DNA of 34,454 nt from positions 1 to 34,454 of the forward strand of contig JAKMFD010000006.1 in the NCBI GenBank assembly GCA_022425625.1. Reading direction: 5' to 3'. The translations under genes were made by a program, and so were the position numbers. Every line of letters starts with the position of its first letter. The first letter of the stretch is position 1. The notes beneath the pieces were generated by a model, which saw nothing but the letters and a program-made list of their open reading frames with translations, was not told the DNA's origin and ran no database searches. Below are positions 1 to 32,475 of this stretch, piece after piece. This DNA is from Crocinitomicaceae bacterium (GTDB lineage Bacteria; Bacteroidota; Bacteroidia; Flavobacteriales_D; Crocinitomicaceae).

Positions 1-264
1 TGCTTGTTCTAATTTCATCTCTTCAGTCAAATGATCATACAGTTGAATTCCACCTCCTTTAGAATCGTCATGAGTATTGAAAATAATATCAACCTCAGAT
101 AAATGGATTTGAAGACCTGTATCTGCAGCTTTTTTTAGTGATCTAGCAATAATTTCATTTGGAATATCCATTCTGATATGCATTTGGAAACCGATGCCAG
201 AAATTGGCACACCTCTATCCAAAAAATCATAAACCATTTCAAGCATGGAATCTAATTTCAGAGA
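1..264 (-). pseudogene. GH10 endo-xylanase-like C-terminal fragment, 5'-truncated in the window and running off the left edge
   Basis: Minus-strand translation ...LKLDSMLEMVYDFLDRGVPISGIGFQMHIRMDIPNEIIARSLKKAADTGLQIHLSEVDIIFNTHDDSKGGGIQLYDHLTEEMKLEQA. It has GH10-type 'GIGxQxHI' and 'GLxIHLSExDI' motifs. An in-frame TGA at 268-270 and the repeat at 267 replace the N-terminal part. Not in the ORF track. Confidence 0.7.
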
Positions 265-266
265 GT

Positions 267-376
267 CTCACGCAATCGGAGAATTGATTCACAGGAATTG
301 GTTCTCCTTTTTTTATGTTTGAGATTTCCTTCGATAAAATCGGTATTGAGCCAAAAATAGCGTTCACTTTTGGGGT
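267..376. repeat. Left copy of a ~110 bp direct repeat bracketing the locus
   Basis: tcacgcaatcggagaattgattcacagg... matches 32316-32423 in the same orientation, with about 9 substitutions and 1 indel by eye. Confidence 0.88.
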
Positions 377-423: not shown

Positions 424-711
424 CTAAATTTTAATCATTTTATTTATAATAAACATACCCTCATTAGAACTTAGTCTAAAGATGTACATGCCTTTTGTTA
501 AATTAATTGTGTCTACTGTAGTTATATCATTATGAACAACTATTGTATTTATTAAATCTCCATTTGTACTAAATATTTCAATTTTACCAACTTCGTCTGA
601 TTTCAGATTAATAGTAATTATATTTGAAAACGGGTTGGGATTTAATTTAAAATTTAGATCTGAAATTTTTATTGTTGTTTTATCCAGCGTTGAGCAATTA
701 AGGTTCGTTAA
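424..711 (-). pseudogene. T9SS type A sorting domain, in frame with the upstream hydrolase but separated from it by one TAA stop
   Basis: Codon-by-codon translation after TAA 712-714: LTNLNCSTLDKTTIKISDLNFKLNPNPFSNIITINLKSDEVGKIEIFSTNGDLINTIVVHNDITTVDTINLTKGMYIFRLSSNEGMFIINKMIKI*. 'NPNPF...G...L..G.Y..' is typical of a T9SS C-terminal domain. Confidence 0.85.
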
Positions 712-1551
712 TTAATTTGATGCTGTTGAATTTTGATCTAATAAATCCATTTCAAGAAGGTCACAATAACACATATCTCCATGTAAAAATAATTGTAACC
801 ATGCGTATACAATATTTCCAAGATCTTCGTTGCTAGTGGATGGATCTAATGGAATATTATGATCCGCATCCGAAACTTCAAAAAGTAATTTGGGCGTGGA
901 ATTTGGAGTATAATTATAATGAACATTAGAATGTTGATTATTTGGTGCTATTGTATCTACTTCCCCGCTAATTATTAACAAGGGTGAATTGTGATTTAAA
1001 TCTGACTCAGACAATGTATTTGGCCATAACCAAGGTGTTATAGATAAAACTGCTTTTATGTTGGGGTTTAATTTTGCAGCCAATTGAGCTCCACCACCAC
1101 CCATAGACCAACCTCCAACTGCTATATTGTTTATGTCAATTTTATGATAAAGAGGAGAAGAAACCCTTTCATTTTCTTGACGAATTGTTTCCATAGCATC
1201 GATTAAAGCATCAGCTCTTACTGCTGGTAAATCATTTAATGAGTTAGTCCCAATTGTCATAGAAACAATTCCACGTTTAGCCAAATATTCAGCCCAAAGC
1301 GCAACCGAATTTTGAGTTGCTTGATAACCTGGAACCAGAACAATACTTTTCAAATTTTCATTATCATTTAATGGAAAATATAGGGTTGCATCCTTATAAT
1401 CATCTCCATTTCTTAATCCGTCAGATTCTATTATTGAACCTATTTCAAAAGGACTATAATTAGTCGTGAGTTGTACAGAAACATCTTCACACTGACTTAT
1501 AGTCACAAAATGATTAATAAAAAATAAAAAGAAAAGTAGTTTGTTCTTCAA
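712..1551 (-). CDS. Secreted PETase/cutinase-like alpha/beta-hydrolase; likely starts at TTG 1551 (ORF track start 1584 is also TTG)
   Basis: VPGYQATQNSV, GWSMGGGG nucleophile elbow, EVDTIAP acid region and DADHNIP histidine region resemble the PETase/polyester-hydrolase family. The signal peptide reads KNKLLFFLFFINHFVTIS directly after TTG 1551. Confidence 0.82.
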   Translation of the reverse strand: MKNKLLFFLFFINHFVTISQCEDVSVQLTTNYSPFEIGSIIESDGLRNGDDYKDATLYFPLNDNENLKSIVLVPGYQATQNSVALWAEYLAKRGIVSMTIGTNSLNDLPAVRADALIDAMETIRQENERVSSPLYHKIDINNIAVGGWSMGGGGAQLAAKLNPNIKAVLSITPWLWPNTLSESDLNHNSPLLIISGEVDTIAPNNQHSNVHYNYTPNSTPKLLFEVSDADHNIPLDPSTSNEDLGNIVYAWLQLFLHGDMCYCDLLEMDLLDQNSTASN

Positions 1552-1695: not shown

Positions 1696-4206
1696 TTATC
1701 TTCTTAGTTCACTCAACCATGATTTGTAAATTTCAAATTTCATTGGAGGACTATAAGACACATAATGATTATTATATGTATTTCCGCCAACCTTGTACTC
1801 AATTAGCCAAAGTTCATTACTCTTTACTTTAGGTAATTCATCCACTTTTAATTTTCCGTTGGCCTCCACTTCTACTGTTTTTGATAGCAGCGTTCTTCCA
1901 GAATCTTTATCGTTAATGGTTATGTCTACCTTCTGTTTGGCTCTAGTGTCATTCACTAAAATTACAGGGTGACCGGTATTTCCTTCGCGAATATCACCAA
2001 CCATAACACACACATCAGTTTGAACATTTTTAATATAGTCATATGCTAATTTTTTACCTCCGTAGTAGTCTATAATAGCATCCGAAATAATCGGCCATCC
2101 ATCGCGAAGGTTCCACCATAAGATTCCATTACGTTCACCTTTATTCATTCGCCAGAACTCAATGAAATATTTTTTTGCCTCAGCTTGTACTATTTGTGAA
2201 GCTATAACAAAATCCTCAAGGGTCGTTGGACATTCACCAAATACTTCACGTATTTGATTAACCATTAAGAAATTACGTTCTCTGTTAATTAAAGAATTAG
2301 GGTTAGACCTAGTTGCTTTTGCTTGCCATTCCTCATTCCAGACTAGCTTTTCTACTTTTTTTAGTTCACCATCAACTGTAACAACATCTTCATCTTCGAT
2401 CTTTAGGCCACTTACCCAAGGGTATACATTTTCTGGAGTCATCATTTTTTTAAGACTCTTAACATTAGGCGCCCCGTGATATCCAATTTCACTAACAAAT
2501 TTTGCATTATTTTCCGTGTAAAAGGGTGCTTTATAAAAACCCCGTGGTCCCCAAAGGTGCATTTCAGGAGAAAGAGATGGATCAACTTTATTATTAACTT
2601 TAAAAACCTCTTCACTAATAAAAGGTGAACTTGGCAAGTATGGTGTTTTTGGATCCCATTCCCTAACAGCGAGTGGTAAAACCTCACGACTAATCACATC
2701 TGAATTTGGGTCTATATGTGGTTGATCATCACCCCATTTTAGAGACACATCATTCTCATTATTTCCAGCCCACAAAACAATTGAAGGGTGGTTTCGCAAT
2801 CTACGTATAACTTTATCTGCTTCAATTTTCACAGCAGATTTAAATTCTTCATTTTGTGGGTAAGTAGTGCACCCAAATGAGAAATCATGCCAAACCATAA
2901 TTCCATTTTGATCACAAAGGTTATAAAAATGATCACTTTCATAAACATTTCCACCCCACATACGAATCATGTTCACATTCAAATCAGTCAACCAACTAAA
3001 AGCCTCATCTACATGATTAATGTCACGGCTGTGTAGAGCATCTAAGGGAACCCAATTGGTGCCTTTTATAAATATATATTCTCCATTGACTTTAAAATGA
3101 AAATCACCTGGATTTTTCTCTGTATTGATAGGCGTTAAAATCAATTCCGAAGTTCTAATCCCAATCTTCTGTTTGTTTTGAGCTAGAGTTTTGCCATTAG
3201 CATCTATTAAAGTTAGACTGGCATCGTACAATGATGATTCTCCAAAACCTCTTGGCCACCAAAAATCAACATTTTCAAGACCCCAAAACCTTTCTCTAGC
3301 TATAGTTGTTGTAACAGGGATTTGCCGGTTAACAATTTGTTTGCCATTTCGTTCTAGCACGAAAGAAATTGTCAAATCATCAATGTAGAGTAAATCCGTA
3401 TCAAACTGCCAATCAACATACATATTGGCTTTTTTTACATCTGGATAAACGTTTTTGGTAACCCAATACACTGATGAAAAATGTGTAGAAGGAACAATTT
3501 CTAACTTTACATCTTTCCACAATCCAGCACTCATCAAACGGGGCATGATATCCCAGCCAAACATGTGTGGTGCTTTTCTTATGGCAGAGGCCTCTCCCAA
3601 CTGATCGTATCTCACACCGAAATTATTTCGCAATTGATTACGAGCCTCTAGTTCGGTGGATTTTATGTGGACAAATAATTTGTTTCGTTTTTCTAAAACA
3701 TCCGTAATATCATAGTGATGCTCAACAAACATATTTTTAACCGAGGCGATTTTTTTGCCATTAAGCCAAATGTCTGCAATACAGTCAATTCCGTCAAATG
3801 CCAATTCTACACGCTCTCCCAATTCAAACTTTGGAGCATCAAACTCTCGGAAATACCACCAATCATACACTTCATATTTGCGCAAGTCATATACGTTATC
3901 CCCAATCATAGGATCTTCGATAATCCCTTCTCTTTCTAGGTCTATTTCAACATTACCTGGAACCGTTCCTACAATATTTTTAAAATCTGAATTTTCTAAT
4001 TCAGCAGGTGATTGTGGTGCATTTTTATCCTGCACGCCATAATAAAGCGTCCACTCTGACGACTTTGCAGAATTTAATGATATTATGGTTTTGGTAGAAG
4101 GTTTATTATGTACTTCCTGTAGTAAAGTGTTTTGATTTTGTGTATAGCTATTTACAGTATTCATTAGCAGTAATAAGATTATAATGTTGTTAAAAGTGTT
4201 ATTCAT
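1696..4206 (-). CDS. GH2 beta-mannosidase-like glycoside hydrolase
   Basis: MIRMWGGNVYESDHFYNLCDQNGIMVWHDFSFGC, LWAGNNEND (acid/base) and SEIGYHG (nucleophile) motifs; signal peptide. Confidence 0.88.
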   Translation of the reverse strand: MNNTFNNIIILLLLMNTVNSYTQNQNTLLQEVHNKPSTKTIISLNSAKSSEWTLYYGVQDKNAPQSPAELENSDFKNIVGTVPGNVEIDLEREGIIEDPMIGDNVYDLRKYEVYDWWYFREFDAPKFELGERVELAFDGIDCIADIWLNGKKIASVKNMFVEHHYDITDVLEKRNKLFVHIKSTELEARNQLRNNFGVRYDQLGEASAIRKAPHMFGWDIMPRLMSAGLWKDVKLEIVPSTHFSSVYWVTKNVYPDVKKANMYVDWQFDTDLLYIDDLTISFVLERNGKQIVNRQIPVTTTIARERFWGLENVDFWWPRGFGESSLYDASLTLIDANGKTLAQNKQKIGIRTSELILTPINTEKNPGDFHFKVNGEYIFIKGTNWVPLDALHSRDINHVDEAFSWLTDLNVNMIRMWGGNVYESDHFYNLCDQNGIMVWHDFSFGCTTYPQNEEFKSAVKIEADKVIRRLRNHPSIVLWAGNNENDVSLKWGDDQPHIDPNSDVISREVLPLAVREWDPKTPYLPSSPFISEEVFKVNNKVDPSLSPEMHLWGPRGFYKAPFYTENNAKFVSEIGYHGAPNVKSLKKMMTPENVYPWVSGLKIEDEDVVTVDGELKKVEKLVWNEEWQAKATRSNPNSLINRERNFLMVNQIREVFGECPTTLEDFVIASQIVQAEAKKYFIEFWRMNKGERNGILWWNLRDGWPIISDAIIDYYGGKKLAYDYIKNVQTDVCVMVGDIREGNTGHPVILVNDTRAKQKVDITINDKDSGRTLLSKTVEVEANGKLKVDELPKVKSNELWLIEYKVGGNTYNNHYVSYSPPMKFEIYKSWLSELRR

Positions 4207-4234: not shown

Positions 4235-6205
4235 TTACCAAATGGTTAACGATTTTAAAACCAGAGAACCTTTATACTCTTCCTGTGGATTAATACAAAA
4301 AACAAATTGAGTGATATATTCCATCGTCTCATACTCTTTTTCATATTGCTCCATTGCCTCAGATAAGTCAATCGACAACTCTTTAAGTTCTCCATTTGTT
4401 ACAGGTAACTCCCTTGTTAGCCATTGCGACCAATTACCATTTGAAACGGCGATATATTTAAATGACAACGGGGTATTATCCATTGTCTTATAATTCATAA
4501 TAAGTTGTGAATTCTTATGCGCCCTAACATTTAAACCCTTGATACTAACCTTTTGCCAGTAATTAGCGGGATGTTCAATATCAATATGAAGCAAGCCATT
4601 CTTTACAGATAGTTGATAACCTTCAGCTTGTTCCCACTTATCATTCAAATCTCCTGTGGTAAAGGATAAGGTTTCTTCTTTTCTTGGTTTTGGCCGGTTT
4701 TTCTCATCTACATAAGCAACATGAGGTGGTGCAACAGGGTTGTTTGAATTATTTAAAACTCCTTTGGGTAATGCATCTTTCCAGCCCGCATTTAATCTTT
4801 GGGATAATTCCGCAACAATGGACTCATTTTCCTTTTTGTAAGCAATATTTACGCTCTCAATAGCATCTTTCCGGTGATCGTATAGTTCAATGGAATCGAC
4901 CTTCTCTCCTCTAACTCTCCATTCTGTATAACGATAATCAGCAGTTCGTATGCTATAGCCTTCCATTTTTCTTCCGCGGGGGAACTGGCTAAAAGAGGCC
5001 GTTTTCCATTCTCTATCCGGATTCTCCATCAAAGGTTTGAAACTGGTGCCCTCTGTGTATTCCGGAATCTCAATATCTGCAAGGTCGCAAAGTGTTGCAT
5101 ACAGATCTACATACTCTACAAGTCGGGTTGAGCGTTCACCTTTCTCATAACCCGGAGCTGAAACAATAAGAGGGGCAAGTGTTGAATTCTCAAAATTAGT
5201 CGTTTTCCCCCACATTTGCTGATCTCCCAGATGCCAACCATGATCGGAAATAAATACGATAATAGTATTATCATATTTGCCTGTCTCTTTAAGGCTTTCA
5301 ATCAACTTACCTACCTGGGCATCAATAAAAGAGATACAAGCGGCATAGGCATGAATTAATTTGCGCTGGTAATTGTCCGGCAAAACATGATCAGGAGAAT
5401 CGTAATAATTCAAACCGGCATAATTTGCAAGCGCGTAATGATTAGTCGAATAAGATGGTGAGTTCTCAGGATGATATTGGTTTGGAGACAACGGTATTTC
5501 ACTCTCCTCATACAAATCCCAGTATTTCTTTGGGGCATTAAATGGCAAATGCGGTTTTACAAACCCTACAGCTAAGAAAAAAGGCTTATCATTTTCCTTC
5601 TGTTGCGATATAATTTTAACAGCTTCTTTGGCAATCAATCCGTCACGATAAGCTTCATCCGGCACATCTGCACATTCATAGGGCGGTGTTTCTTTTCCAC
5701 GCCCTTTCTTGCCTCCTTTTTCAATATTTTCAGGCAGTGCATAATACGATCCTGTGTTCAGGCCTGTCTTAGGAAAATAATGCTCTGTTTTTAAATTATC
5801 ATGTGGTCCATGATGTATTTTTCCAAAAGTATGTGTGTAGTAACCATTTTGCTCAAAATATTCGGCTAACATAGGATGAGCAGGCCAAAATTCATTCATA
5901 AAATACTTGCTGTACGGATAATCCGTGCCTGTAGTATTGGGGCGAACTCCACTCAGAAAACTGGCCCTGGAAGCAGAACAAACAGCTTGTTGTACATAGG
6001 CATTTGTGAATAACACTCCATTCTTTGCCAAATTATCAATATTGGGAGAATGAATATAGTCAGCACCATAACAATTGAGCTCTGTGCGCATATCATCTGA
6101 AATAATGAACAGTACGTTGGGCTTCTCATAGAGCTTCTCCTGTGTACAGGATAGCATTATAATTGCTATGAAAAACAAAAATAATTTTGTAGTAATGTTA
6201 TTCAT
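4235..6205 (-). CDS. S1-family sulfatase (iduronate-2-sulfatase-like), lipoprotein, with an extra C-terminal beta-rich domain
   Basis: CSASRASFLSG formylglycine motif, NVLFIISDDMR, lipobox MLSC, and ~130 aa C-terminal extension. Confidence 0.9.
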   Translation of the reverse strand: MNNITTKLFLFFIAIIMLSCTQEKLYEKPNVLFIISDDMRTELNCYGADYIHSPNIDNLAKNGVLFTNAYVQQAVCSASRASFLSGVRPNTTGTDYPYSKYFMNEFWPAHPMLAEYFEQNGYYTHTFGKIHHGPHDNLKTEHYFPKTGLNTGSYYALPENIEKGGKKGRGKETPPYECADVPDEAYRDGLIAKEAVKIISQQKENDKPFFLAVGFVKPHLPFNAPKKYWDLYEESEIPLSPNQYHPENSPSYSTNHYALANYAGLNYYDSPDHVLPDNYQRKLIHAYAACISFIDAQVGKLIESLKETGKYDNTIIVFISDHGWHLGDQQMWGKTTNFENSTLAPLIVSAPGYEKGERSTRLVEYVDLYATLCDLADIEIPEYTEGTSFKPLMENPDREWKTASFSQFPRGRKMEGYSIRTADYRYTEWRVRGEKVDSIELYDHRKDAIESVNIAYKKENESIVAELSQRLNAGWKDALPKGVLNNSNNPVAPPHVAYVDEKNRPKPRKEETLSFTTGDLNDKWEQAEGYQLSVKNGLLHIDIEHPANYWQKVSIKGLNVRAHKNSQLIMNYKTMDNTPLSFKYIAVSNGNWSQWLTRELPVTNGELKELSIDLSEAMEQYEKEYETMEYITQFVFCINPQEEYKGSLVLKSLTIW

Positions 6206-6217
6206 TTCGATATAGTA

Positions 6218-7666
6218 TTAATTGATACTAACTGCTGAAAGCTTCTTTTGCAACTCAATTTTCATACTTTGAAGTTGTTGCTTACAAGCCGGATTGTTAA
6301 ATAGGTTAAACTCTTCACCCGGATCATTCCGTAGGTCATATAATTCATTCATTTCATCAGTTTCCAACCCAACATAATCGACATATTTCCAATTCTTTGT
6401 TCTCACCGATTGCCAGGATGGAGTATTTCGCGCTACCTTTTCGTGAAAATATTCGGCATAAAAAGATGTTCTCCACTCTGCGTCTTCTGTTTTGAAAAGT
6501 GATAAAAATGATTTTCCATGTATAGGAATCAATGGCTCAACCCCTACAACATCATATATTGTTGGTGCCCAATCAATATTTAAGACCATTTTATCTATTT
6601 TAATTCCGGATTTAATCATTTTTGGATATCGGATAAAAAATGGTACTCGCAACACATTGTCGTATGCCCAACGCTTGGTGTGGAATCTATTATGTTCCCC
6701 CATCAGCATTCCATTATCGCTAGTGTAAACAATAATTGTATTGTCTAACTGCCCCCGTTTTATTAGTATTTTAAATATTTCACCAACTCCTTCATCTACA
6801 CTAAGCAAGCAGCGCATTTGATCGGCAACGATACCGGTTCTATCATTATCCCTACCGCGTCTTGGTTCTACAGGCTCGGGTACAATGTTTTCATATTCAT
6901 AAGGGGGCTTCCATGGCACACTCCTTTGTAATACAGGTTTGCTCTCAATATTTCCCTTACTAACATGCGGTGCCCGATACTCAAAATCAGGATAGTAATC
7001 GCTATGACGCTCTGCTGGTATGATAGGACTATGGACCGCTTTGTGTGACAGAATCATCGCAAAAGGTTGGTTTTTGCTATTCTTTTTTAGAAAATTCACA
7101 GCCTGCTCGTTCAGGTAATCAGTCATATTGCCGTCAATTTGTTTGATTGTGCCTTCATCGTTAACTACTCCGTTGGTAAAAATACCTTGGCCCTTAAAGC
7201 TGACCCATCTGTCAAATCCAGGGCGACGGGAATCATCAAGTCCCATGTGCCATTTTCCAATAAAGGCAGTTTTATAACCATGCTCGCGTAATTGTCTTGG
7301 CCATGTCATTAGCGTATGACTGATAACATCCAGGCCTAAACGGTCATTGTTTATAACGGCATGTTTTTGTGCATACTGCCCAGTAAGAAAACTTGCACGG
7401 CTTGGTGAACATATTGGTGTGACCACAAAGAAGTTTTCAAACATTGCTCCTTCTTTTGCAATTCTGTCAATATTGGGCGTTTTTGAAACAATATTTCCCT
7501 CAATACTAGTTAATCCAGATTGTTGATCGTCAGTGATTATGAATATAATATTGGGTAATTCAACAATATTTGATACGCTGTCTTTTTTAGTTAAAACTGA
7601 ATTAACTTGAGAAGAACCATACCCAACAAAAAATATACAAACAAATAACTTTAATAATATTCTCAT
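6218..7666 (-). CDS. S1-family sulfatase; likely start MRILLK at 7666 (ORF track 7693)
   Basis: CSPSRASFLTG motif, IIFIITDDQQSG, DNGMLMGEH. The 9-residue extension in the track precedes a better signal peptide. Confidence 0.9.
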   Translation of the reverse strand: MRILLKLFVCIFFVGYGSSQVNSVLTKKDSVSNIVELPNIIFIITDDQQSGLTSIEGNIVSKTPNIDRIAKEGAMFENFFVVTPICSPSRASFLTGQYAQKHAVINNDRLGLDVISHTLMTWPRQLREHGYKTAFIGKWHMGLDDSRRPGFDRWVSFKGQGIFTNGVVNDEGTIKQIDGNMTDYLNEQAVNFLKKNSKNQPFAMILSHKAVHSPIIPAERHSDYYPDFEYRAPHVSKGNIESKPVLQRSVPWKPPYEYENIVPEPVEPRRGRDNDRTGIVADQMRCLLSVDEGVGEIFKILIKRGQLDNTIIVYTSDNGMLMGEHNRFHTKRWAYDNVLRVPFFIRYPKMIKSGIKIDKMVLNIDWAPTIYDVVGVEPLIPIHGKSFLSLFKTEDAEWRTSFYAEYFHEKVARNTPSWQSVRTKNWKYVDYVGLETDEMNELYDLRNDPGEEFNLFNNPACKQQLQSMKIELQKKLSAVSIN

Positions 7667-7670
7667 GTAT

Positions 7671-9062
7671 CTAGTTTTGTTTTGACCTAGCATTTTCTAA
7701 TTGAGCAGTTACTTTCTCTTTCATGAATTTTTCTGTCAAAGGATAAAAAAACATGATTATTATAGATAAAATTACCCCTACAGCTGCAAAAATGCTAATC
7801 ATTAATCGAATTCCTAAAATTGATTCATCGGTTTGTATGTCATTTGCAATAAAGCCAAAGGCAGCTAATATCCAACCACTTATAGCACCACCAATAGTCC
7901 AACCTAGTTTTTGTGACATGGAAGAGGAGGAAAAAATAAGACCCGTTGCTCGTCGGCCCGTTTTTAATTCGGAATAATCTGAGACATCGCCATACATAGC
8001 CCAAATTAATGGAAAAGCCATAGCCGAAAAAATACCAATTAATATATTGATTATAAATATAAATTCAATTTGTGTTGGAGGAAGAAAGAAAAACAATACG
8101 GAAAGAACGCCGCAAATCAAACCTGAAAGAATAAATGTGTTTTTTTTACCAATTCTATTAGAAATTGGTATTGCCATAATTACACCTATCAAGCTGGTTG
8201 CAAAACCACTGCTCATATAGGCCGCAGATAATGCACCATGAGAAACTTCTCCGAAATAGGTGACATTTTGATCCCCAATAAAATATTTAAAATAATATAG
8301 GATTGCCCCTCCTCTTAAAGAGTTAAATATTAGTACTGAAATTGAGGCGCCAAGCATAATAAACCATGGATTGTTTTTAAACAAATCACTTAAATCTACT
8401 TTAAAGCTAGAAGACTTCACTTCTTCAGGGTTGAGTCTTTCCTTAGTACCTAAAAAAGTAAGTACAAAAAATATCCCTGCTATTATTGCATAAATGGCGA
8501 CCGTTTTTTGATATGATGAGGCTAAATCTCCTGTTGTTTTGAAATATTCCACTAAATAATTAGCGGTTGAAGTGACCATCAATCCTGCACAAAATCCACC
8601 TATAAATCTAAATGAGGCCAATGAAGTTCTCTCGTCTGGATTCTTGGTCATTACGCCAAGTAAGGAAGCGTAAGGCACATTTACTGCTGTATACACCATC
8701 ATCATTAGTGTATATGTGATATACGCATAAATCAATTTCCCAGATGGCCCTATATCAGGCGTTGTAAAAGTTAAGATTCCAATGATGGTAAACGGTAGTG
8801 CGCCAAATAAAAGATAGGGTCTAAATTTACCCCATCTTGAGGTTGTGCGATCACATATCATACCCATTATAGGGTCATTTGTTGTGTCCCAAAATCGTGC
8901 TACAAGAAACATAGTCCCTGCTGCAGCCGCGGTTATCCCAAATACATCAGTATAAAAATATAAAAGAAACATGGAAAACAATGTCCAAAAGGTAGAGGAA
9001 GCAAAATCACCAAAGCCATAAGATATTTTTTCTTTAATGCTAATTTTTTCAATTTCATTCAT
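7671..9062 (-). CDS. MFS transporter, GPH (glycoside-pentoside-hexuronide:cation symporter, MelB-like) family
   Basis: YGFGDFASSTFW...YFYTDVFGI..., RFWDTTNDPIMGMICDRTTSRWGKFRPY, typical GPH signature; multiple TM segments. Confidence 0.9.
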   Translation of the reverse strand: MNEIEKISIKEKISYGFGDFASSTFWTLFSMFLLYFYTDVFGITAAAAGTMFLVARFWDTTNDPIMGMICDRTTSRWGKFRPYLLFGALPFTIIGILTFTTPDIGPSGKLIYAYITYTLMMMVYTAVNVPYASLLGVMTKNPDERTSLASFRFIGGFCAGLMVTSTANYLVEYFKTTGDLASSYQKTVAIYAIIAGIFFVLTFLGTKERLNPEEVKSSSFKVDLSDLFKNNPWFIMLGASISVLIFNSLRGGAILYYFKYFIGDQNVTYFGEVSHGALSAAYMSSGFATSLIGVIMAIPISNRIGKKNTFILSGLICGVLSVLFFFLPPTQIEFIFIINILIGIFSAMAFPLIWAMYGDVSDYSELKTGRRATGLIFSSSSMSQKLGWTIGGAISGWILAAFGFIANDIQTDESILGIRLMISIFAAVGVILSIIIMFFYPLTEKFMKEKVTAQLENARSKQN

Positions 9063-9192: not shown

Positions 9193-10692
9193 TTAAAATT
9201 CATTTTTTGACCAATACTTTAATGCATTTATTGCATTATGCCAGCCATCAATATGATGTTTTGTTTTTTTAATGTCATCGTTTGGCTTAAAATATCGATC
9301 AACTTCCCACATAGCTTGAATTTCTTCAACACTTTGCCAAAAGCCAATTGCCAAACCTGCAAAAAAGGCAGCGCCCATCGCAGTGGTTTCAATAATTTTA
9401 GGTCTTACAGTCACAGTGTTCAAAACATTGGCCTGAAATTGCATCAGCATCTCGTTTACTGCAGCTCCTCCATCTACCCGCAATTCTTCAATATGAATTC
9501 CTGAGTCTGCTTCCATCGCTCTTAAAACGTCCATGACTTGATAAGCAATTGACTCCAAAGCTGCACGAGCTATATGAGCATCTGAACTTCCTCTTGTCAA
9601 TCCAAAAAAAGCTCCTCGTGCATCTTGGTTCCAATGTGGTGCACCTAAGCCTACAAATGCTGGTACAAAATAAACTCCATCAGAGCTATCAACAGAGTTT
9701 GCAAGTTTCTCGACTTCAGTAGATGTTTTGATAATTTTAAGGCTATCACGTAGCCATTGTACAACTGCGCCTCCCGTGAAAACACTACCTTCTAGGGCAT
9801 AACTAGTTTTATCATTAATTTTCCAAGCTACTGTGGTTAATAAATTATTTTTTGATGCAATAGGTTTTTCTCCAATGTTCATCAACATAAAACAACCCGT
9901 TCCATAGGTGTTTTTCACCATTCCTGGCTCAGTACACATTTGCCCAAACAGTGCTGCCTGCTGATCACCAGCAATACCTGAAATGGGCAAACTAATTTCG
10001 AATAAATCTTTATGGGTGTAGCCATAGACTTCGCTTGATTGCTTAACCTCAGGCAACATACTTTTAGGTATGGTAAAAAGCTCTAAAAGCACATCGTCCC
10101 ATTTCATGGTATGGATGTTAAACAATAGAGTTCTAGATGCATTAGAAACATCTGTAATATGATGTTTTTTCTCACTCAGATTCCAAACGAGCCAAGTGTC
10201 AATAGTTCCAAATAAAAGATCTCCTTTATTTGCTCCTTCCCTAGCATTTGCCACATTGTCTAAAATCCATTTAATTTTAGTCGCTGAAAAATACGCATCA
10301 ACATACAATCCTGTTTTTTCAAAAATCATTTCACCATAAGGAGATTCTTTCAATTCATTACAATAACCAGATGTTCGCTTGTCTTGCCAGACTACAGCGT
10401 TGTATACGGGTTTTCCTGTATTTCTATCCCAAACGACAACGGTTTCTCTTTGGTTTGCAATTCCAATTGCTGCGATATTGGAAGGTTTTAACCTCGTTTT
10501 CATTATCGCTTCCAGAATAACATCATATTGACTTGACCAAATCTCTTGAGGATCATGCTCAACCCATCCAGGTTTTGGGAATATTTGTGTAAACTCTTTT
10601 TGAGCAGTTGAAACACAAGTACCCATTTTATCTACAATAATTGCTCTTGAACTAGTTGTTCCTTGATCTAGTGTTAAGATGAACTTATCCAT
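9193..10692 (-). CDS. glpK: Glycerol kinase
   Basis: [21 protein letters not shown]..., [55 protein letters not shown]. Confidence 0.96.
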
Positions 10693-10708
10693 AGTACAAT
10701 GACTGATA

Positions 10709-12286
10709 TTACCTTTTACTGGGGTTTAAAATATAATTATTAGCTAATTCTGAAAAAACTTTAATTTGCTTTTCAACCCAATTATCATCTTTCCTTAACT
10801 CTTTAGCTAACAACTTGGCAACAACTGGTGCGGCAGCTACCGAAGCCTGAGCATTTAAAAAAAGAGCCCTTGTTCTTCTAGCCAAAACATCTTCAACAGT
10901 CCTCGCAAATTCGTTTCTAATCGACCAGACAACTTCTGCTTTGGTATAATCAAGGGTAGGGTGTATTTTTTCAGAATATTCAGGGTGCTCCATTGAAAGT
11001 TTTTTAATGTGCTCAAAATCTGAACCATAAATACTCTGGGGCAGATCAACTGGTCTAGCGCCATGAATCATAATATTAGCTGTTAAACATTTTTTTTCTT
11101 CCAACATCCCAAGTAAAATAACTTCATCTATTGATTCTTCAGCCATTTTTCTAAATGTTGTCCATTTACCACCAGTAATAGAAATTAAGTTTGAATCAGA
11201 AACAAGGATTTTGTGACCTCTAGATATCTCTTTTGTTTTTTTGCGGTTATTCTTACGAATTGCAAGTGGTCTTAACCCTACAAAAACACTTAAAATATCG
11301 CTTCTTAGCACTTGTTTATTCAAGTAACTATTTAAGGTTGAAAGTATAAAACTAATTTCATCGTCTAGAGCCATGGGCTCGTATTCACATTTTTTAACTG
11401 GTGTGTCTGTAGTGCCAACAACGACTTTTCCTTTCCAAGGAATGACAAAAAGCACGCGTCCATCAATGGTTTTTGGAATCATGATTGCATCTTTACTTGA
11501 CAAAAAAGTATTTTCTAAAACAATATGAACGCCTTGACTAGGTTGAATAATTTTTTGTGCAAAGGGATTATCCATTCTAATAATCTTATTGGTAAAAACA
11601 CCTGTTGCGTTTATGACAACATTTGCATTAAGTTCATAGGAAATATTTGTTTCACAATCAATTGCCTTAACTCCACAAACTTTTGCAGCATCATTTTTTA
11701 ATATTTTATCTATCATAAAATGATTCAAAACGGTAGCGCCATAATCTACACAGCTTTGAGCAAGATTGACTGCCATTCTTGAATCATCAAATTGACCATC
11801 ATAATAAACTATTCCTCCCAATAGCTTGTCACATGACAAGGTTTTTAGTCTAAATGAAGCTTCCTCCTTGTTAATGAAGTATGATTTACCAACACTTCGT
11901 TTTCCAGCCAATAAGTCATATAACTTTAATCCTATCAAATATTTATACTTGCTTAACAAACTAAAACATGGAATAATAAAGGATTGGACCTTTGTTAAGT
12001 GGGGTGCATTTTTTAGCAGCAAATCTCGTTCTAACAAAGCCTCTTTAACAAGGCTTATATTCCCTTGTGCCAAATACCTTACTCCACCGTGAAGAAGCTT
12101 TGTGCTTCGACTCGAAGTTCCTTTTGCAAAATCAACTCCTTCTAGTAGCAATGTATCATACCCTCTTGATGCAGCATCTAATGCAACACCTAATCCTGTA
12201 GCACCTCCTCCAATTATAATAATATCCCATCTTGAGATTTGTTTGAGCTGATTTACTAAGCGTTTTCTATTATATAGGTTTCTCAT
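10709..12286 (-). CDS. glpD: FAD-dependent glycerol-3-phosphate dehydrogenase
   Basis: [64 protein letters not shown]. Confidence 0.95.
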
Positions 12287-12293
12287 TTATATA

Positions 12294-12956
12294 CTAGAAT
12301 TTAGAAGTATTGCGATTATGGTCTTCTAAAAATTTGGATAACCCAGAATCCGTCAGTGGATGATTTAGCAAACCTTCAATAGCAGACAAAGGCCCAGTCA
12401 TAACATCGCTCCCAATTTTTGCACAATTTATCACGTGCATAGTACTGCGAATTGATGCCGCTAAAATTTGAGTTTTGTATCCATAGTTATTATAAATTTT
12501 TCTAATTTCAGCTATTAGACCGAGTCCATCAGCAGAAATGTCATCCAGCCTTGCAAGAAATGGAGACACATAAGTTGCCCCTGCTTTTGCAGCCATTAAT
12601 GCTTGTCCAGAAGAAAAAACCAAAGTAACATTGGTTTTGATTCCCTTGTCTGAAAAGTATTTACAGGCCTTTATTCCTTCTGAAATAACAGGCATTTTAA
12701 TCACAATTTGAGGACTCAAAGCTGCAAGTGCTTCTCCCTCTTTAACCATACCTTCGAAATCTGTAGCAATCACTTCAGCGCTTACGTCACCATTTACTAT
12801 GTCGCATATTTTTTTATAATGGTTGAAAATGTTTTGTTGGCCACGAATTTCTTCTTTTGCCATGAGTGATGGATTTGTTGTTACTCCATCAAGTACTCCC
12901 AAAGATTCTGCTTGTGCAATGTCTTCGAGATTTGCTGTGTCTATAAAAAATTTCAT
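12294..12956 (-). CDS. Transaldolase / fructose-6-phosphate aldolase family (TalC/FSA-type, short)
   Basis: MKFFIDTANLEDI, GVTTNPSLMAKE, TNVTLVFSSGQA, YVSPFLARLDD. Confidence 0.93.
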   Translation of the reverse strand: MKFFIDTANLEDIAQAESLGVLDGVTTNPSLMAKEEIRGQQNIFNHYKKICDIVNGDVSAEVIATDFEGMVKEGEALAALSPQIVIKMPVISEGIKACKYFSDKGIKTNVTLVFSSGQALMAAKAGATYVSPFLARLDDISADGLGLIAEIRKIYNNYGYKTQILAASIRSTMHVINCAKIGSDVMTGPLSAIEGLLNHPLTDSGLSKFLEDHNRNTSKF

Positions 12957-12995: not shown

Positions 12996-14132
12996 TTATT
13001 TTGTTTGATTTAAAAACAAAGTGAAAGGATGATTGTAAAATTTTAAAAAATCTAGAACTCCTGGATGTCCTGGGTATGGAACGTGGAAATGGCTTTTATC
13101 AGCGTTTCTCCAAACCATAACATAGCTAATTTGCCTTGTTATTTCGTCATATAATATACTTTTAAGTAATTTGTTAGTATACCAATCTTTTTCATTCATG
13201 ATAGCCTTACCATTATTAGAAAAAGGCCCCGTTTCTGTAAATGCTGCTGGTTTATTTTTTGTATTGGCTATTCCTACAAGAGTTTGTAATTGACTAACCA
13301 TTTCATTAATGCCTCCATAATTCTTCCTTAAACTCCAATAATTATCAAGTCCCAGAATGTCGATGTATTCATCTCCGGGGTACCTAAAAAGATAGTTTAA
13401 ATTGAGTGTCAACCTAGCTGGGGAAAAAGCATAAAGTAAATTATCTACTCCTTTAATTTCTGAAAGATATTCAACAGTAAATCGCCACAACTGGATGTAT
13501 TCTTCATCGGAACAGTTGCTAGCTCCCCACCAAAACCAGTCACCATTGTGCTCATGCCATGGTCTAAAAATAATTGGGATTTTTTCTCCATTTTGATCAA
13601 TAAGCGAATTGAAAAAAAAAGCCAAATGATCTAATTGGGACAAAAATTTAAGGTGGTTTTTTCCTCCAGGCAAAATCGAAGCAACAACATTTTTGGATTT
13701 ATATGGATGGTTTTTCCATAAATAATCACCCCCATAGTAATTTTCAGCATGCCAATCGATGGTATTAAACCCTCCTTTTTCATGAAATAATTCAATTTTA
13801 AATCGAGCAGCCTTAAAGTCTTCTCCACGAGCGATTCTGCAAATTGTGTAATCTGCTCCCCATCCAGCAAGTGCAGGATAGTCACCTGTTATTTTTTTAA
13901 CATCACTTTCATCATTGTCATTATCCCAACCTACTCCATATCCTGTAGCATCTTTCATTCCAAAAAAAATACCTTTGCCCTTGATTTGAAGTAGTTTGTT
14001 ATAAAGAGCTTGTGTTTGATGGCTTCTTTTTTTTACAAATAAGGAATCACTTACAGACGTATTATTAAACTCCTGAATAAAAAAAAGTGAACTAACAATG
14101 TTTAAATACGTCAGTAAAACAAAACAACTCAT
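12996..14132 (-). CDS. GH26 beta-mannanase-like glycoside hydrolase
   Basis: IIFRPWHEHNGDWFWWGA (acid/base) and PAAFTETGPF (nucleophile) are GH26 signatures; N-terminal signal segment. Confidence 0.88.
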   Translation of the reverse strand: MSCFVLLTYLNIVSSLFFIQEFNNTSVSDSLFVKKRSHQTQALYNKLLQIKGKGIFFGMKDATGYGVGWDNDNDESDVKKITGDYPALAGWGADYTICRIARGEDFKAARFKIELFHEKGGFNTIDWHAENYYGGDYLWKNHPYKSKNVVASILPGGKNHLKFLSQLDHLAFFFNSLIDQNGEKIPIIFRPWHEHNGDWFWWGASNCSDEEYIQLWRFTVEYLSEIKGVDNLLYAFSPARLTLNLNYLFRYPGDEYIDILGLDNYWSLRKNYGGINEMVSQLQTLVGIANTKNKPAAFTETGPFSNNGKAIMNEKDWYTNKLLKSILYDEITRQISYVMVWRNADKSHFHVPYPGHPGVLDFLKFYNHPFTLFLNQTK

Positions 14133-14143
14133 CAGAAAGTATT

Positions 14144-15478
14144 TTAATTTTTCAAACTATTATAAATAGCTTTTAATTCGTCAACCTTTTTAGGAAACTC
14201 AAGAGCTAAATTTGTTGTCTCACTGACATCAATTTCTAAATTAGATAAAAAGTAAGGACTTTCTAATAGCAGTGTATTCCTATAATTAGAGTCTTTAATA
14301 ACAGGGTTTATTAGTAACTTCCAATTCCCTTTTCGGACTGCTATCTGTTTTTGGTATACCCAGCAGTATTCATCATGCGACGATTTTACTTGATTATCTT
14401 TTAGTATTTCGGTTAAACTTTTACCATCTAAGCCATCCTTATTTAAACTTATCCCACACAACTCCGCGAGTGTAGGCATCCAATCAGCAACAACAGCCAT
14501 TTGACTACGTGTTTGCTTTTGCTTTATGACTTTTGGCCAAGAAATGGCGGCTGGTACGCGAATTCCTCCTTCAAAAAGGCTGCCTTTATGTCCACGATAA
14601 GGTCCTGAGCTTCCGCCGCCGCCATGCGCTCTTTGCTCATTGGAAAATCCATTGTCGCTTTGAAACACAATGATTGTGTTTTCTCTTAGTCCTAATGTTT
14701 CAAGTTTAGATAGTAATCCGCCGATATTGTCATCCATGGTAGATAAAAAAGCAGCATATAAATTTCGCGGGTATTCCACCCCATTAGTGTTGTAAAAATC
14801 TAACCACTCTTTGGTGCCCTGATATGGATAGTGAGGAACATTAAGTGCGTAATACAAAAAAAATGGATTTGATTTATTTGTCTCCAAAAACCTTTTGGCT
14901 TCTTCGAGCATCAAATCGGGGAAAAATTCACCATCACGATATATCTCCTTTCCATTCAAATAAAGGTCATGGTAGTTCGCTCCATTTGCATAATATGAAG
15001 AGTGAGAGAAATTGTCGAACCCGCCATCAAGAGGTCCAAAAGAATAATCAAAACCTTGATTAGTAGGTTGTTTTTCCATAGAGCTACCAAGGTGCCATTT
15101 TCCAATGATGGCGGTACTATACCCAGAATCTTTAAACATTTCTGCCATAGTATATTCTTCACTGGATAACCCTTCATTTTGGTATTGTCGGCTTCTAACC
15201 ACTTCAGTAACACCTGTTTTTCCAGGTCTCTTTCCTGTCAATAAAGAAGCACGGGTCGGAGAGCAAACCGGAGCAGCATAAAATTGGGTGAATTTAATCC
15301 CACTGTCCACAAGCTTATCCATGTTTGGAGTTTGTAAATCTAGAGCGCCATAAGAATTAAGATCAACACTGCCTTGGTCATCAGTTAGAATAACGATAAC
15401 ATTTGGCCTTTGCAAGGCTTTTACACTTAAAATTGAAGTTTGAATTAGCAAGAAAGATAAGAATGTGATTTTTTTCAT
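14144..15478 (-). CDS. S1-family sulfatase (arylsulfatase A-like); likely start MKKITF at 15478 (ORF track 15499)
   Basis: CSPTRASLLTG, NVIVILTDDQGSVD, SDNGFSNEQRAHGGGGSSGPYRGHKGSLFEGGIRVP. Confidence 0.92.
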   Translation of the reverse strand: MKKITFLSFLLIQTSILSVKALQRPNVIVILTDDQGSVDLNSYGALDLQTPNMDKLVDSGIKFTQFYAAPVCSPTRASLLTGKRPGKTGVTEVVRSRQYQNEGLSSEEYTMAEMFKDSGYSTAIIGKWHLGSSMEKQPTNQGFDYSFGPLDGGFDNFSHSSYYANGANYHDLYLNGKEIYRDGEFFPDLMLEEAKRFLETNKSNPFFLYYALNVPHYPYQGTKEWLDFYNTNGVEYPRNLYAAFLSTMDDNIGGLLSKLETLGLRENTIIVFQSDNGFSNEQRAHGGGGSSGPYRGHKGSLFEGGIRVPAAISWPKVIKQKQTRSQMAVVADWMPTLAELCGISLNKDGLDGKSLTEILKDNQVKSSHDEYCWVYQKQIAVRKGNWKLLINPVIKDSNYRNTLLLESPYFLSNLEIDVSETTNLALEFPKKVDELKAIYNSLKN

Positions 15479-15502
15479 ATGAATTATTAATAAAATCATT
15501 TA

Positions 15503-15520
15503 AGCTAACACGGTTTAGCT
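15503..15520. promoter_or_regulatory. Candidate LacI-family operator upstream of sulfatase
   Basis: AGCTAACACGGTTTAGCT: 7/9 palindromic pairs, 25 bp upstream of the likely ATG at 15478. Confidence 0.62.
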
Positions 15521-15579
15521 AATATAATAAAAAATGTCTTAAAATTTAAATTAATTATTCCTCTGTGCTTAAAAGCTAA

Positions 15580-16365
15580 TCAGCTTATAGTTTGTAAATA
15601 CATTAAACTTTTAGGAATTTGAGTTAAGACATTTTGACTTTCGTCCTCAACAAACAAATACTCAATTCGTAATTTAATGGCTTCAGCCACAATTTCTTTC
15701 ACACCCACATCACCAGAGCCCAAAACTACGTTGGTGTCACTATCTACTTGACCAGAATTATTGGATTTGGTTCCAATCTTTCTATCTTTTAAATGTAATA
15801 AAGAAATTTTATCTGAATACTTTTGAAGTAGTAATAAAGGATCTTCACCTCCCATTTTTATCCAAAAAACATCAATTTCAAAAGTAAAATATTTAGCCAT
15901 TTGGACCATATAATCAAAAAGGGTTCCATTCTTATACGGTTGGAACTCATATCCATGCGTATGGTATGCCAAACGCAACCCTTCTTTTTCTAAAAGCTTT
16001 CCAGATTTATTAAAAAAATCAGTTGCTATTTTGATCTTATCAAATTCAATAACATTATAATCATGAGGAATCCAACCTACAATCACATATTTCGATTCAA
16101 AATATTTTGCAGTCTCAATGACTTTATTTGGATTGTATAACAACTCTTCATAGGATACTGCTAAACTTATCAATTCCAACCCGTTTTTGTCAAGCAATTT
16201 TTTTTGAGCCTCCAAAGAAACCCCAGATATCGTGCTTCCTTCTACATATTTAAAGCCCCAATCTCGAACCCTTTTGAATGTTCTTGGAATGTTCTTTATA
16301 AATTGGCTACGAAGACTGTATAATTGAAGTCCTAATTGTGGTCTGAGGGAAAAATTAATTGACAT
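15580..16365 (-). CDS. Sugar phosphate isomerase/epimerase (xylose-isomerase-like TIM barrel)
   Basis: LGLQLYSLRSQF, LRLAYHTHGYEF, FEIDVFWIKMGGEDPLLLLQKY, ISLLHLKD, YLFVEDES. Confidence 0.88.
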   Translation of the reverse strand: MSINFSLRPQLGLQLYSLRSQFIKNIPRTFKRVRDWGFKYVEGSTISGVSLEAQKKLLDKNGLELISLAVSYEELLYNPNKVIETAKYFESKYVIVGWIPHDYNVIEFDKIKIATDFFNKSGKLLEKEGLRLAYHTHGYEFQPYKNGTLFDYMVQMAKYFTFEIDVFWIKMGGEDPLLLLQKYSDKISLLHLKDRKIGTKSNNSGQVDSDTNVVLGSGDVGVKEIVAEAIKLRIEYLFVEDESQNVLTQIPKSLMYLQTIS

Positions 16366-16490
16366 AACTATAGAAAAGTGATACGTTTTTTGGCTAATTA
16401 TAAGTTTTATCCCTTTTTAAATTATTATTTGTGCTAACTCCATTTTCATTTGCAGCCTTTTAAAAGCATAACCTGTTCTAGCAGATCTTT

Positions 16491-17834
16491 TTATTGATTA
16501 ATTCTTTGCCAAGGTATTTTACCAGACTTTCTTATATGTTGAGATAAATCGTAGCGAAGCATCTTAAACATTTTATGATTACTATCCAAAGGGTTCGTTT
16601 CAAATGGATCCGTTGAAATATTAAAAAGTTGCATCGACTCAAAGGGAGTGTTTTGAACTAATTTAAAGTCTCCTTGTCTAGCCGCATAATAACTCAACCC
16701 AGCGTCATCATACCCCGATCTTCTAACAAAAAAGATAGTTCTATTTTTTTGTGCCAAACTCTCATTGTTATGCTGTAATAAATTGATTCCGTCAATTACA
16801 TGATTGATTTCAACGCCAGATAAACCCAATAGAGTTGGATACAGATCCATCGTTATTCCTAATATATCTGTCTCAGAGTTTGTCTTGATTTTATTTTTCC
16901 AAACCAAACATGTAGGGACTTTTATTCCACCTTCATACATATCTGTTTTACTCCCTCTTAATTTTCCATTACTCGCTCCACTTGGAATGTGACCACCATT
17001 ATCGGATGTAAAAACTATTATGGTGTTTTCATACATCCCTCTAGTCTTTAAAGTCTCTATAACCCGCCCGATTTCATGATCTAAATGTTCAACAAGGGCT
17101 ACGTATTTTGCACGCTTTTCAGAGAGGGATTTATCCCTTTTTTTAACTTCACTATACCATTTATTTGGCGGTTGAATAGGATAATGGGGGGCATTGTATG
17201 AAAGAAGCATAAAAAATGGTGATGGTAATTTTGCGTTATCATTAATATACTTAATTGCCCAGTTAGAAAAAACTTCTGTGGCGTGACCATCGGCAGTAAT
17301 CGCTTCATAATTTCTACGCATAAAAGCCTCACCATTTTGCAAATGCTCATAATAATCATCCATCATACCACTTAAAAATCCATGAAAGAATGTAAACCCT
17401 CTTTGGTTAGGCAAGTTTGGGCTTTCAACACCAAGATGCCACTTACCGATAAGAGCTGTGTTATAGCCTTCATTTTTAAGGGTTTTTGGCAACGTTAATT
17501 CATCCTCTTTAAAATAACCCCAACTTTGATCTTTTTTTTTGCGAATAACTCCTGGAACTCCGACCATATCAGGATATTTTCCTGTAAGCAGTGAAGCTCT
17601 AGTGGGGGAGCAAACAGGGCTATTAGAATAAAAGTTTATAAAAACTACGCCTGAATTAAAAAGCGAGTCAATGTTAGGTGTTTTAATATTTTGACCTCTA
17701 TTGAAAGATAAATCTCCGTATCCTAAATCATCAGTCATAATGATGATTATATTGGGCTTGTCTTGTGCCCATATTTCTTGAGAGATAGCTATGGAAAGTA
17801 TTAGTATTAATAAAAGTTTAATTCTATATATCAT
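16491..17834 (-). CDS. S1-family sulfatase
   Basis: CSPTRASLLTG, NIIIIMTDDLGYGDLS, GKWHLG, TSDNGGHIPSGASNGKLRGSKTDMYEGGIKVP. Confidence 0.93.
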   Translation of the reverse strand: MIYRIKLLLILILSIAISQEIWAQDKPNIIIIMTDDLGYGDLSFNRGQNIKTPNIDSLFNSGVVFINFYSNSPVCSPTRASLLTGKYPDMVGVPGVIRKKKDQSWGYFKEDELTLPKTLKNEGYNTALIGKWHLGVESPNLPNQRGFTFFHGFLSGMMDDYYEHLQNGEAFMRRNYEAITADGHATEVFSNWAIKYINDNAKLPSPFFMLLSYNAPHYPIQPPNKWYSEVKKRDKSLSEKRAKYVALVEHLDHEIGRVIETLKTRGMYENTIIVFTSDNGGHIPSGASNGKLRGSKTDMYEGGIKVPTCLVWKNKIKTNSETDILGITMDLYPTLLGLSGVEINHVIDGINLLQHNNESLAQKNRTIFFVRRSGYDDAGLSYYAARQGDFKLVQNTPFESMQLFNISTDPFETNPLDSNHKMFKMLRYDLSQHIRKSGKIPWQRINQ

Positions 17835-17994
17835 CGTTTTTATAATTTCTTTTATGGAACCTTCATTTACTTCCTAATTATCAAATATTCCATCACATAA
17901 CTAATTCCCAATATTACCCTTTTGCCGATGCGTAATCCTTTTATACTAGACTGTGAGACCCTCAATAATTTCGGTTTTGCTTTGAGTTTGTTAT

Positions 17995-19422
17995 TTAATG
18001 ATAACGTTTAGTGATATATACCTTTTCAAGAGGGGTAGCGTTTATTTCAGGAATATATTTTGCCAACTCATTTTTAACATCCTGGTACTTTGGGTTATTT
18101 GCTAAATTTGTAAATTCCATTGGATCCACATCGTGGTTGTACAATTCTTCTTGCACCCCCCCATAACTTATGTAACGCCATTTTTTATTGCGTACAGTAT
18201 GGCGATTAAAACCCATCGTAGTTAATGAAGGAATGTTCCATTCTGTATTCACATCTTTCAAAAGAGGTACCAAACTATTTCCTTCATTTTCAGTATTAAT
18301 TGGAAGTCCAGCTAATTCTGAAAGTGTTGGATATAAGTCTAATAAATTAACAGGACTTGGGCAACGTGATCCAGGTTGTGTAAGGCCAGGTACTTTAATA
18401 ACCAATGGTGTTTTGCAGGCTTCCTCCCACAATGTGTATTTTTTATAACGCATTTTATCTCCTAAATGCCATCCATGATCTCCCAACAATATCACGATGG
18501 TATTTTCTGCATATTTAGTCTTTGCCAATGCATCAAGGATAATTCCTACACAAGCATCTGCATAGTTTATACTGGCCAAATATGCCTTCACAGCTGCCTT
18601 TTGTTTATTATATTTTTTAGCAGCAAAATAATTTTTTGAAGGCTTCGCAGCATAGCTTGGTATATCGTCGTGGTCATTTTCATTAATATATGGAAGAATC
18701 ATTTCCTCCTCATTAAATTTTTCGAAAAACTCTTGCGGAACATTCCAACTTAAATGAGGTCGGTAAATGCCAACTGCCAAAAAGAAAGGCTTATCATAAT
18801 CTTTCTGAAGTTGATCTGCAGCCCACTTAGCATTTAAGTAGTCAGAAGTTTCTTCAAACAGAGCATCTGTAGGTCCCCAGTCAAAATTATCATCAGCCTC
18901 ACCTTCTGGAATTCCATTAGCCATAAAACCAGGTTCTTTTTTTACCTCCCCATAATCACCTACTTCTTTTACCCACTTGTCCCATGAAATTGTATCTGCC
19001 TGTTGACCGTTTGGCTTATGAAATATTTTTCCACGAGCTGTTGAAAAATAACCATGTTTTGAAAACCATTGTGGCAAAGTCGGTGCGTTTTTTAAAATAG
19101 GCGAATCACGTAATTCCATTGCATTTCCATAAACACCAGTTGTTGACGGACGATATCCCGTTAATAATGCAGCCCTTGAGGGGCCACATAATGATGATGC
19201 AGCATAGGTTTTATCAAAAACAACTCCTTGTTGAGCTAATTTATCCATATTTGGGGTTATGGTTTGTGGATGTCCACCACCAAATCCTGTCCAATCGTTT
19301 AAGTCATCTACAGAAATAAAGAGAACGTTATAAGTTTGTTTTTTTTCTTGTTTAGAAGTAATTTTCGATATACAAGATGTCATTAATACAATTACAGTTA
19401 AAAGTAAAAGGTTTGTTTTCAC
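17995..19422 (-). CDS. S1-family sulfatase (iduronate-2-sulfatase-like), lipoprotein
   Basis: CGPSRAALLTG, NVLFISVDDLNDW, LLGDHGWHLGDKMRYKKYTLWEEACKTPL, lipobox TSC. Confidence 0.92.
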   Translation of the reverse strand: MKTNLLLLTVIVLMTSCISKITSKQEKKQTYNVLFISVDDLNDWTGFGGGHPQTITPNMDKLAQQGVVFDKTYAASSLCGPSRAALLTGYRPSTTGVYGNAMELRDSPILKNAPTLPQWFSKHGYFSTARGKIFHKPNGQQADTISWDKWVKEVGDYGEVKKEPGFMANGIPEGEADDNFDWGPTDALFEETSDYLNAKWAADQLQKDYDKPFFLAVGIYRPHLSWNVPQEFFEKFNEEEMILPYINENDHDDIPSYAAKPSKNYFAAKKYNKQKAAVKAYLASINYADACVGIILDALAKTKYAENTIVILLGDHGWHLGDKMRYKKYTLWEEACKTPLVIKVPGLTQPGSRCPSPVNLLDLYPTLSELAGLPINTENEGNSLVPLLKDVNTEWNIPSLTTMGFNRHTVRNKKWRYISYGGVQEELYNHDVDPMEFTNLANNPKYQDVKNELAKYIPEINATPLEKVYITKRYH

Positions 19423-19483
19423 AGTAGTGTGTTTAAATTTCTTAGATGCAATGTGATGTTATTCTGTAATGCCTAAATATTAT

Positions 19484-32250: not shown

Positions 32251-32475
32251 TCAAAATTTAAATTCTAAAACTAATTTTACAACTTCAAAAACGTCTGAAC
32301 TATTACATGCTTGGGTCACGCAATCGGAGAACTGATTCACAGGGATTGGTTCTCCTTTTTTTATGTTTGAAATTTCTTTAGATAAAATCGAAATTGAGCC
32401 AAAATAGTGTTCACTTTTGGTGTTAAATATTCTAAGTGATGTATTTTCAATTTTGGCTTGCAACTCTTGAAACAA
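32251..32475 (-). CDS. Short hypothetical ORF spanning the right repeat copy; possibly a gene fragment
   Basis: 74 aa, MFQELQAKIENTSLRIFNTKSEHYFGSISILSKEISNIKKGEPIPVNQFSDCV...; no family recognised; homologous frame is disrupted by an indel in the left repeat copy. Confidence 0.35.
   Translation of the reverse strand: MFQELQAKIENTSLRIFNTKSEHYFGSISILSKEISNIKKGEPIPVNQFSDCVTQACNSSDVFEVVKLVLEFKF
32316..32423. repeat. Right copy of the ~110 bp direct repeat bracketing the locus
   Basis: tcacgcaatcggagaactgattcacaggg... matches 267-376 in the same orientation. Confidence 0.88.

Follow-up and report, generated by a model that had tools for sequence, protein, structure and literature searches.

A PETase-family esterase of a sulfated-glycan locus in Bacteroidota is separated from its T9SS sorting domain by an in-frame stop codon

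Introduction

The closest described relatives of the enzyme examined here are PET30 of Kaistella jeonii and PET27 of Aequorivita. In the crystal structure of PET30 a disulfide joins C262 and C285, and PET30 remains active when its PorC domain is removed (PMC8767016), so the sorting domain is dispensable for catalysis. PET30 carries F80, Y178 and T200 at the variable substrate-contact positions, where IsPETase has Tyr, Trp and Ile, and mutating the PET30 contacts to the IsPETase type results in loss of activity on PET and BHET (PMC8767016). Contacts of the IsPETase type therefore do not predict PET activity. Among glycan loci, those of North Sea Flavobacteriia for beta-mannan contain GH130 and lack sulfatases (PMC6298971). 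Our search turned up no literature linking the PF12740 PETase family to a polysaccharide utilization locus, which does not prove that there is none.

For the native substrates of PETase-like enzymes in marine Bacteroidota, a relative encoded within the sulfatase/GH26 loci of three MAGs suggests a hypothesis open to test, namely a glycan ester. In this study, we examine one such gene in a 34,454-nt stretch of DNA, hereafter the window, which comprises positions 1-34,454 of contig JAKMFD010000006.1 (labelled G000:C156) in the Crocinitomicaceae bacterium MAG GCA_022425625.1. An earlier note on this DNA had described a secreted, PETase-like hydrolase at the end of a sulfated-glycan locus.

Results

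The esterase is a PETase-like (PF12740) serine esterase catalytic domain of 279 aa, encoded on the minus strand at 712-1551. All 279 codons are open, with no frameshift or internal stop, and every motif quoted in the earlier note (TIGTNS, TPWLW, EVDTIAPNNQ, DADHNIP, GWSMGGGG) is present in the DNA. The coordinates imply a TTG start codon (1549-1551); no in-frame ATG lies upstream of it, and downstream the frame holds no Met before codon 98. Alignment with the UBA4009 ortholog indicates that the ATG of that gene became TTG in the window copy by a 1-nt deletion. The N-terminus, read by eye, is a Sec-type signal peptide (MKNKLLFFLFFINHFVTIS). Lipoprotein anchoring was considered and rejected, as TISQC, again by eye, does not fit a lipobox. 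Rfam elements were not found in positions 1-2000 of the window, nor was a terminator-like site, and promoter-like matches were not clearly above shuffles.

The PF12740 profile matched the protein at 2.4e-46 (158.7 bits, against a curated cut-off of 28), and general alpha/beta-hydrolase families gave weak secondary Pfam matches. Its best solved relative is PET30 (PDB 7PZJ; 3.6e-72 by sequence, 46% identity). The same structure was the top Foldseek match (9.1e-27, TM 0.75, 46% identity), followed by cutinases and IsPETase, of an AlphaFold model that was built from seven sequences and is of moderate confidence (pLDDT 68.5, pTM 0.75). The model matches the alpha/beta-hydrolase fold, and the GxSxG elbow reads GWSMG. 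Alignment to PET30 places a conserved catalytic triad at S149-D199-H231 and the substrate contacts at W148, Y76, M150, W174 and I201, a set of the IsPETase rather than the PET30 type. Two glycines are altered (G240S, G242E) in a conserved loop not far past the catalytic His. Phylogeny placed the protein among Bacteroidota relatives, in a separate 8-row clade (100/99) outside that of PET30. The profile search and structure overlay that the earlier note had proposed as checks thus returned a PETase-like fold and best match, and the outcome it had named as refuting did not appear. By its sequence, the protein is an authentic PETase-family esterase. It is best assigned to the serine carboxylester hydrolases, within the PETase / type II cutinase-like family, and belongs to a clade of Bacteroidota enzymes that is related to PET30. 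The earlier note had correctly recognised the family, together with the Ser-Asp-His triad and the kinship to PET27 and PET30.

The reading frame closes at an in-frame TAA (712-714, minus strand) that occupies a Tyr position of the relatives in UBA2540 (KYLTNLNC) and G470 (TYQTNLDC). The window reads NSTASN-stop-LTNLNCSTL; the corresponding stretch is NSTSSKYLTNLNCSSL in UBA2540, while G470 (L043), whose genome belongs to the same class, has NSTASTYQTNLDCPTL and, after it, an intact tail. Directly past the TAA, and in the same frame as the enzyme, lies an orphaned T9SS type A sorting domain of 95 stop-free codons (424-711, minus strand; domain match 427-711), which matches Por_Secre_tail in Pfam at 8.7e-11 and TIGR04183 at 3.1e-10. 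A stop-free frame of this kind arose in 1/20000 mononucleotide shuffles. The sorting domain typical of PET27/PET30-type enzymes is therefore present in the DNA but separated from the ORF, and the claim of a secreted enzyme with such a domain fails for the translated product. The Cys past the TAA aligns by count with C285 of PET30, so the partner for the C-terminal disulfide is encoded beyond the stop, although C263 is kept. We see no reason to invoke programmed read-through of the TAA. The window esterase would thus be either retained inside the cell envelope or starting to decay.

Tail loss extends to relatives within the eight-member clade (window, UBA4009, UBA2540, three Roseivirga, L030 and L043; 100/99), whose tail-less members group together in the tree (88/81). 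The tail is retained in L030 and L043. The UBA2540 relative has a stop three codons past the Cys and a degraded tail after it; those of the three Roseivirga genomes end at the Cys position or just short of it, with no tail and with Cys263 also replaced (Ser or Leu). The reading frames of the Roseivirga and UBA2540 genes are intact. Since the end points differ and the tail frame is still open in the window, separate losses are indicated, and from these alignments tail loss looks recurrent in the clade. The PETase-like proteins of L018-L022 (family f9 genomes) end in a dockerin-like repeat (ADIDGDGFVNVTDILELLSMFG), not a T9SS tail.

Comparison of the window gene with its UBA4009 ortholog (88% identity) over 279 codons gave dN/dS of 0.25 (NG86) or 0.17 (YN00), with 41 of the 71 differences at third positions, which argues that the gene was constrained for most of their divergence. 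When changes were polarised with outgroups, the window branch held 12 replacement and 6 silent changes. On the UBA4009 branch 15 changes were silent and 9 were replacements, or 8 if the start codon is left out. This replacement excess on the window branch (Fisher p 0.06) is weakly suggestive of relaxed selection on the window copy.

The upstream neighbour of the esterase is a mannosidase-like GH2 (1696-4206), beyond which lie two sulfatases (4235-7693), genes for a glycerol kinase, a glycerol-3-phosphate dehydrogenase-like protein and a member of the fructose-6-phosphate aldolase family (9193-12956), a GH26 reduced to its catalytic domain (12996-14132), and four more sulfatases with a TIM-barrel isomerase (14144-20956), all on the minus strand. 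The contig also encodes a SASA-type esterase, a TonB receptor, a LacI-type regulator and MFS transporters, and its six sulfatases are all six found in the MAG. The note's placement of the gene, last in a sulfated-glycan locus, is right for this contig, given its six sulfatases, GH2, GH26 and SASA esterase. By analogy, GH26 and GH2 suggest a beta-mannan-type backbone. The UBA4009 and UBA2540 esterase genes lie in a homologous sulfatase/GH26 locus of different gene order, and the three loci are not independent cases; around the ~60%-identical Roseivirga copies no glycan genes were found nearby. UBA4009 (L025) and UBA2540 (L026) share 99.5% identity across 7 kb of sulfatase genes, with an abrupt drop at GH26/PETase (~69%).

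Immediately upstream of the esterase, in another frame of the minus strand, is a relic of the last ~50 codons of a second T9SS sorting domain (1548-1703). At the DNA level it is 79% identical to the tail of a UBA4009 GH26 gene lying directly ahead of the PETase gene there; the product of that GH26 gene has 727 aa and consists of GH26, a surface-glycan-binding-type domain and a T9SS tail. A similar relic occupies the corresponding position in UBA2540, with a sulfatase gene now between a shortened GH26 and the relic, while in the window GH2 adjoins the relic. The differing arrangements indicate that the locus was rearranged and that GH26 and the esterase both ended up tail-less. The sorting-domain relics are alike and hardly resemble two other intact tails on the window contig; recombination through tail-coding sequence may possibly have produced the rearrangement. 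The three-domain, tailed GH26 copy of UBA4009 lies at L025:7802-9985, and the bare catalytic copy of UBA2540 at L026:7119-8270.

At the near end of the contig, a 5'-truncated GH10 xylanase fragment (1-267, minus strand) runs off the contig, next to a 110-bp gene relic (268-377) that reads ILSKEISNIKKGEPIPVNQFSDCV on the minus strand and is repeated at 32316-32424 with 91% identity. The direct repeat flanks the locus and reads as a degraded gene end. It was not found elsewhere in the MAG genome; in genus mates its matches were weak and no longer than 23-45 bp, and plasmids gave no match. We rejected it as a mobile-element boundary, debris being the simpler reading of a degenerate gene end that is not repeated elsewhere in the genome.

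The contig itself is likely misbinned or was acquired recently by horizontal, inter-family transfer. The window shares 1.5-kb stretches with UBA2540 at 92% and 89% DNA identity, whereas a housekeeping aminotransferase has 51-52% identity to the genus reference in UBA2540 and UBA4009, and 90% in this MAG. No GH26 relative was found at E 1e-40 in 240 family genomes, and tetranucleotide usage of the contig is nearer UBA2540 than the rest of the MAG.

Discussion

Most likely, the window esterase is periplasmic, with a glycan ester or another ester of short chain length as its substrate. The fuller proposal, that it is a functional periplasmic esterase acting on a glycan ester of the locus with PET or polyester activity incidental, we consider about evenly balanced. 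In this proposal the protein would be exported by Sec and, without a sorting domain, retained in the periplasm. Acting alongside the sulfatases, GH2 and GH26 of the locus, Ser149, with His231/Asp199 activating it, would cleave an acyl or aryl ester from oligosaccharides that the neighbouring TonB receptor would bring in; any action on PET or other polyesters would be secondary. Function is favoured by the intact triad and contacts, the low dN/dS, the open frame and the PF12740 and PET30 matches. A tail-less product is in keeping with the intact frames of the Roseivirga and UBA2540 relatives, with the dispensability of PorC in PET30, and with the locus GH26, likewise tail-less in the window and UBA2540. 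The altered start codon, the loss of the disulfide partner while Cys263 remains, G240S and G242E, and the 12:6 ratio on the window branch weigh in the other direction. The glycan-ester role would be plausible from genomic context: it is favoured by the UBA4009 and UBA2540 copies beside GH26 and sulfatases, and disfavoured by the Roseivirga genes. These are the closest relatives without a tail that lie elsewhere than in such loci, and they lack glycan genes around them. We know of no ester substituent of the glycan of this locus.

The main rival, which we hold possible though on the unlikely side, treats the window copy as a pseudogene at an early stage, once T9SS-secreted, whose start codon and tail were lost after the locus was rearranged. 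TTG in place of ATG, the nonsense codon at the Tyr position and the lost disulfide Cys could all be read as its first lesions, and the weak replacement excess and the nearby debris (truncated GH10, sorting-domain relic and 110-bp relic) fit the same course. Such decay would nevertheless have spared 279 codons from any frameshift or internal stop and left triad and contact residues intact; it also has to accommodate the pairwise dN/dS of 0.17-0.25 and tail-less relatives whose frames are intact.

A broader version of the periplasmic proposal, which we regard as doubtful, extends it to the clade: repeated sorting-domain loss would mark a shift from surface to periplasm, and the enzymes in sulfated-glycan loci would be periplasmic de-esterases. 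If true, this role would be a natural function for a PETase relative. In any event, the pattern of tail loss warns that family membership does not imply a T9SS-secreted PETase.

It is improbable that the substrate is instead an ester of glycerol or another short-chain, lipid-like ester, with freed glycerol passing to the GlpK and GlpD of the locus. Glycerol kinase and glycerol-3-phosphate dehydrogenase-like genes do occur here and near the UBA2540 copy, and PET27-30 are active on tributyrin and short-chain pNP esters according to the literature, but GlpK, GlpD and the aldolase could equally serve a sugar pathway, the window lacks lipid transport and beta-oxidation genes, and the Roseivirga relatives have no glycerol-gene neighbours. 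Equally hard to credit is an assembly or sequencing error at the TAA hiding a full-length T9SS-secreted PET30-like enzyme. In its favour, the post-stop domain is intact, stop-free and well-scoring, and the stop is about 700 bases from the contig end. Against it, the UBA4009 contig, which breaks off at codon 280 just before a stop codon could be completed, has TCAAATT as far as it goes and matches the window (TCAAATTAA), not UBA2540 (TCAAAATAT); the lost ATG and the relic upstream are, moreover, lesions of their own.

As a periplasmic esterase of a sulfated-glycan locus, the window protein would be a lead on the natural functions of PETases, and its comparison with known systems is as follows. 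In having GH26 with GH2, the locus recalls the loci for beta-mannan in Flavobacteriia of the North Sea (PMC6298971), but those carry GH130 and have no sulfatases, so the beta-mannan-type backbone is a tentative suggestion. A paralog in the same MAG (G000:C58, L002) shares PF12740 and Tyr-Met-Trp with the window esterase, but is 43% identical to it, has 368 aa and bears a weak T9SS sorting domain; this tailed paralog adjoins trmD/aminotransferase, a neighbourhood conserved across the MAG's own genus. PET93 and PET94 (Maribacter, Arenibacter; PMC13188925) are, like the window protein, PETase-like enzymes of Bacteroidota with a Tyr-Met-Trp motif and no PorC domain; by their description they have 433-434 aa, fall outside the PET27/PET30 subcluster and are not in an operon. 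IsPETase (Ideonella sakaiensis) agrees with the window esterase in fold (TM about 0.72), in the triad and in the residues at the HEMT-contact positions named in PMC8767016, at about 32% identity. The window esterase lacks the active-site disulfide of IsPETase (G196/I233 at the PET30 G195/V232 positions) and, aligned by eye, has His at the position of IsPETase Ser214. With PET30 and PET27 (PMC8767016) it has in common the fold, triad, N-terminal signal region, C-terminal CYC motif and Bacteroidota origin, and it differs in its contacts (Tyr-Met-Trp-Ile, against Phe-Met-Tyr-Thr in PET30 and Phe-Met-Trp in PET27). Unlike both, it has no translated T9SS domain, its C285-aligned Cys is encoded past a stop, and its gene belongs to a sulfatase/GH26 locus.
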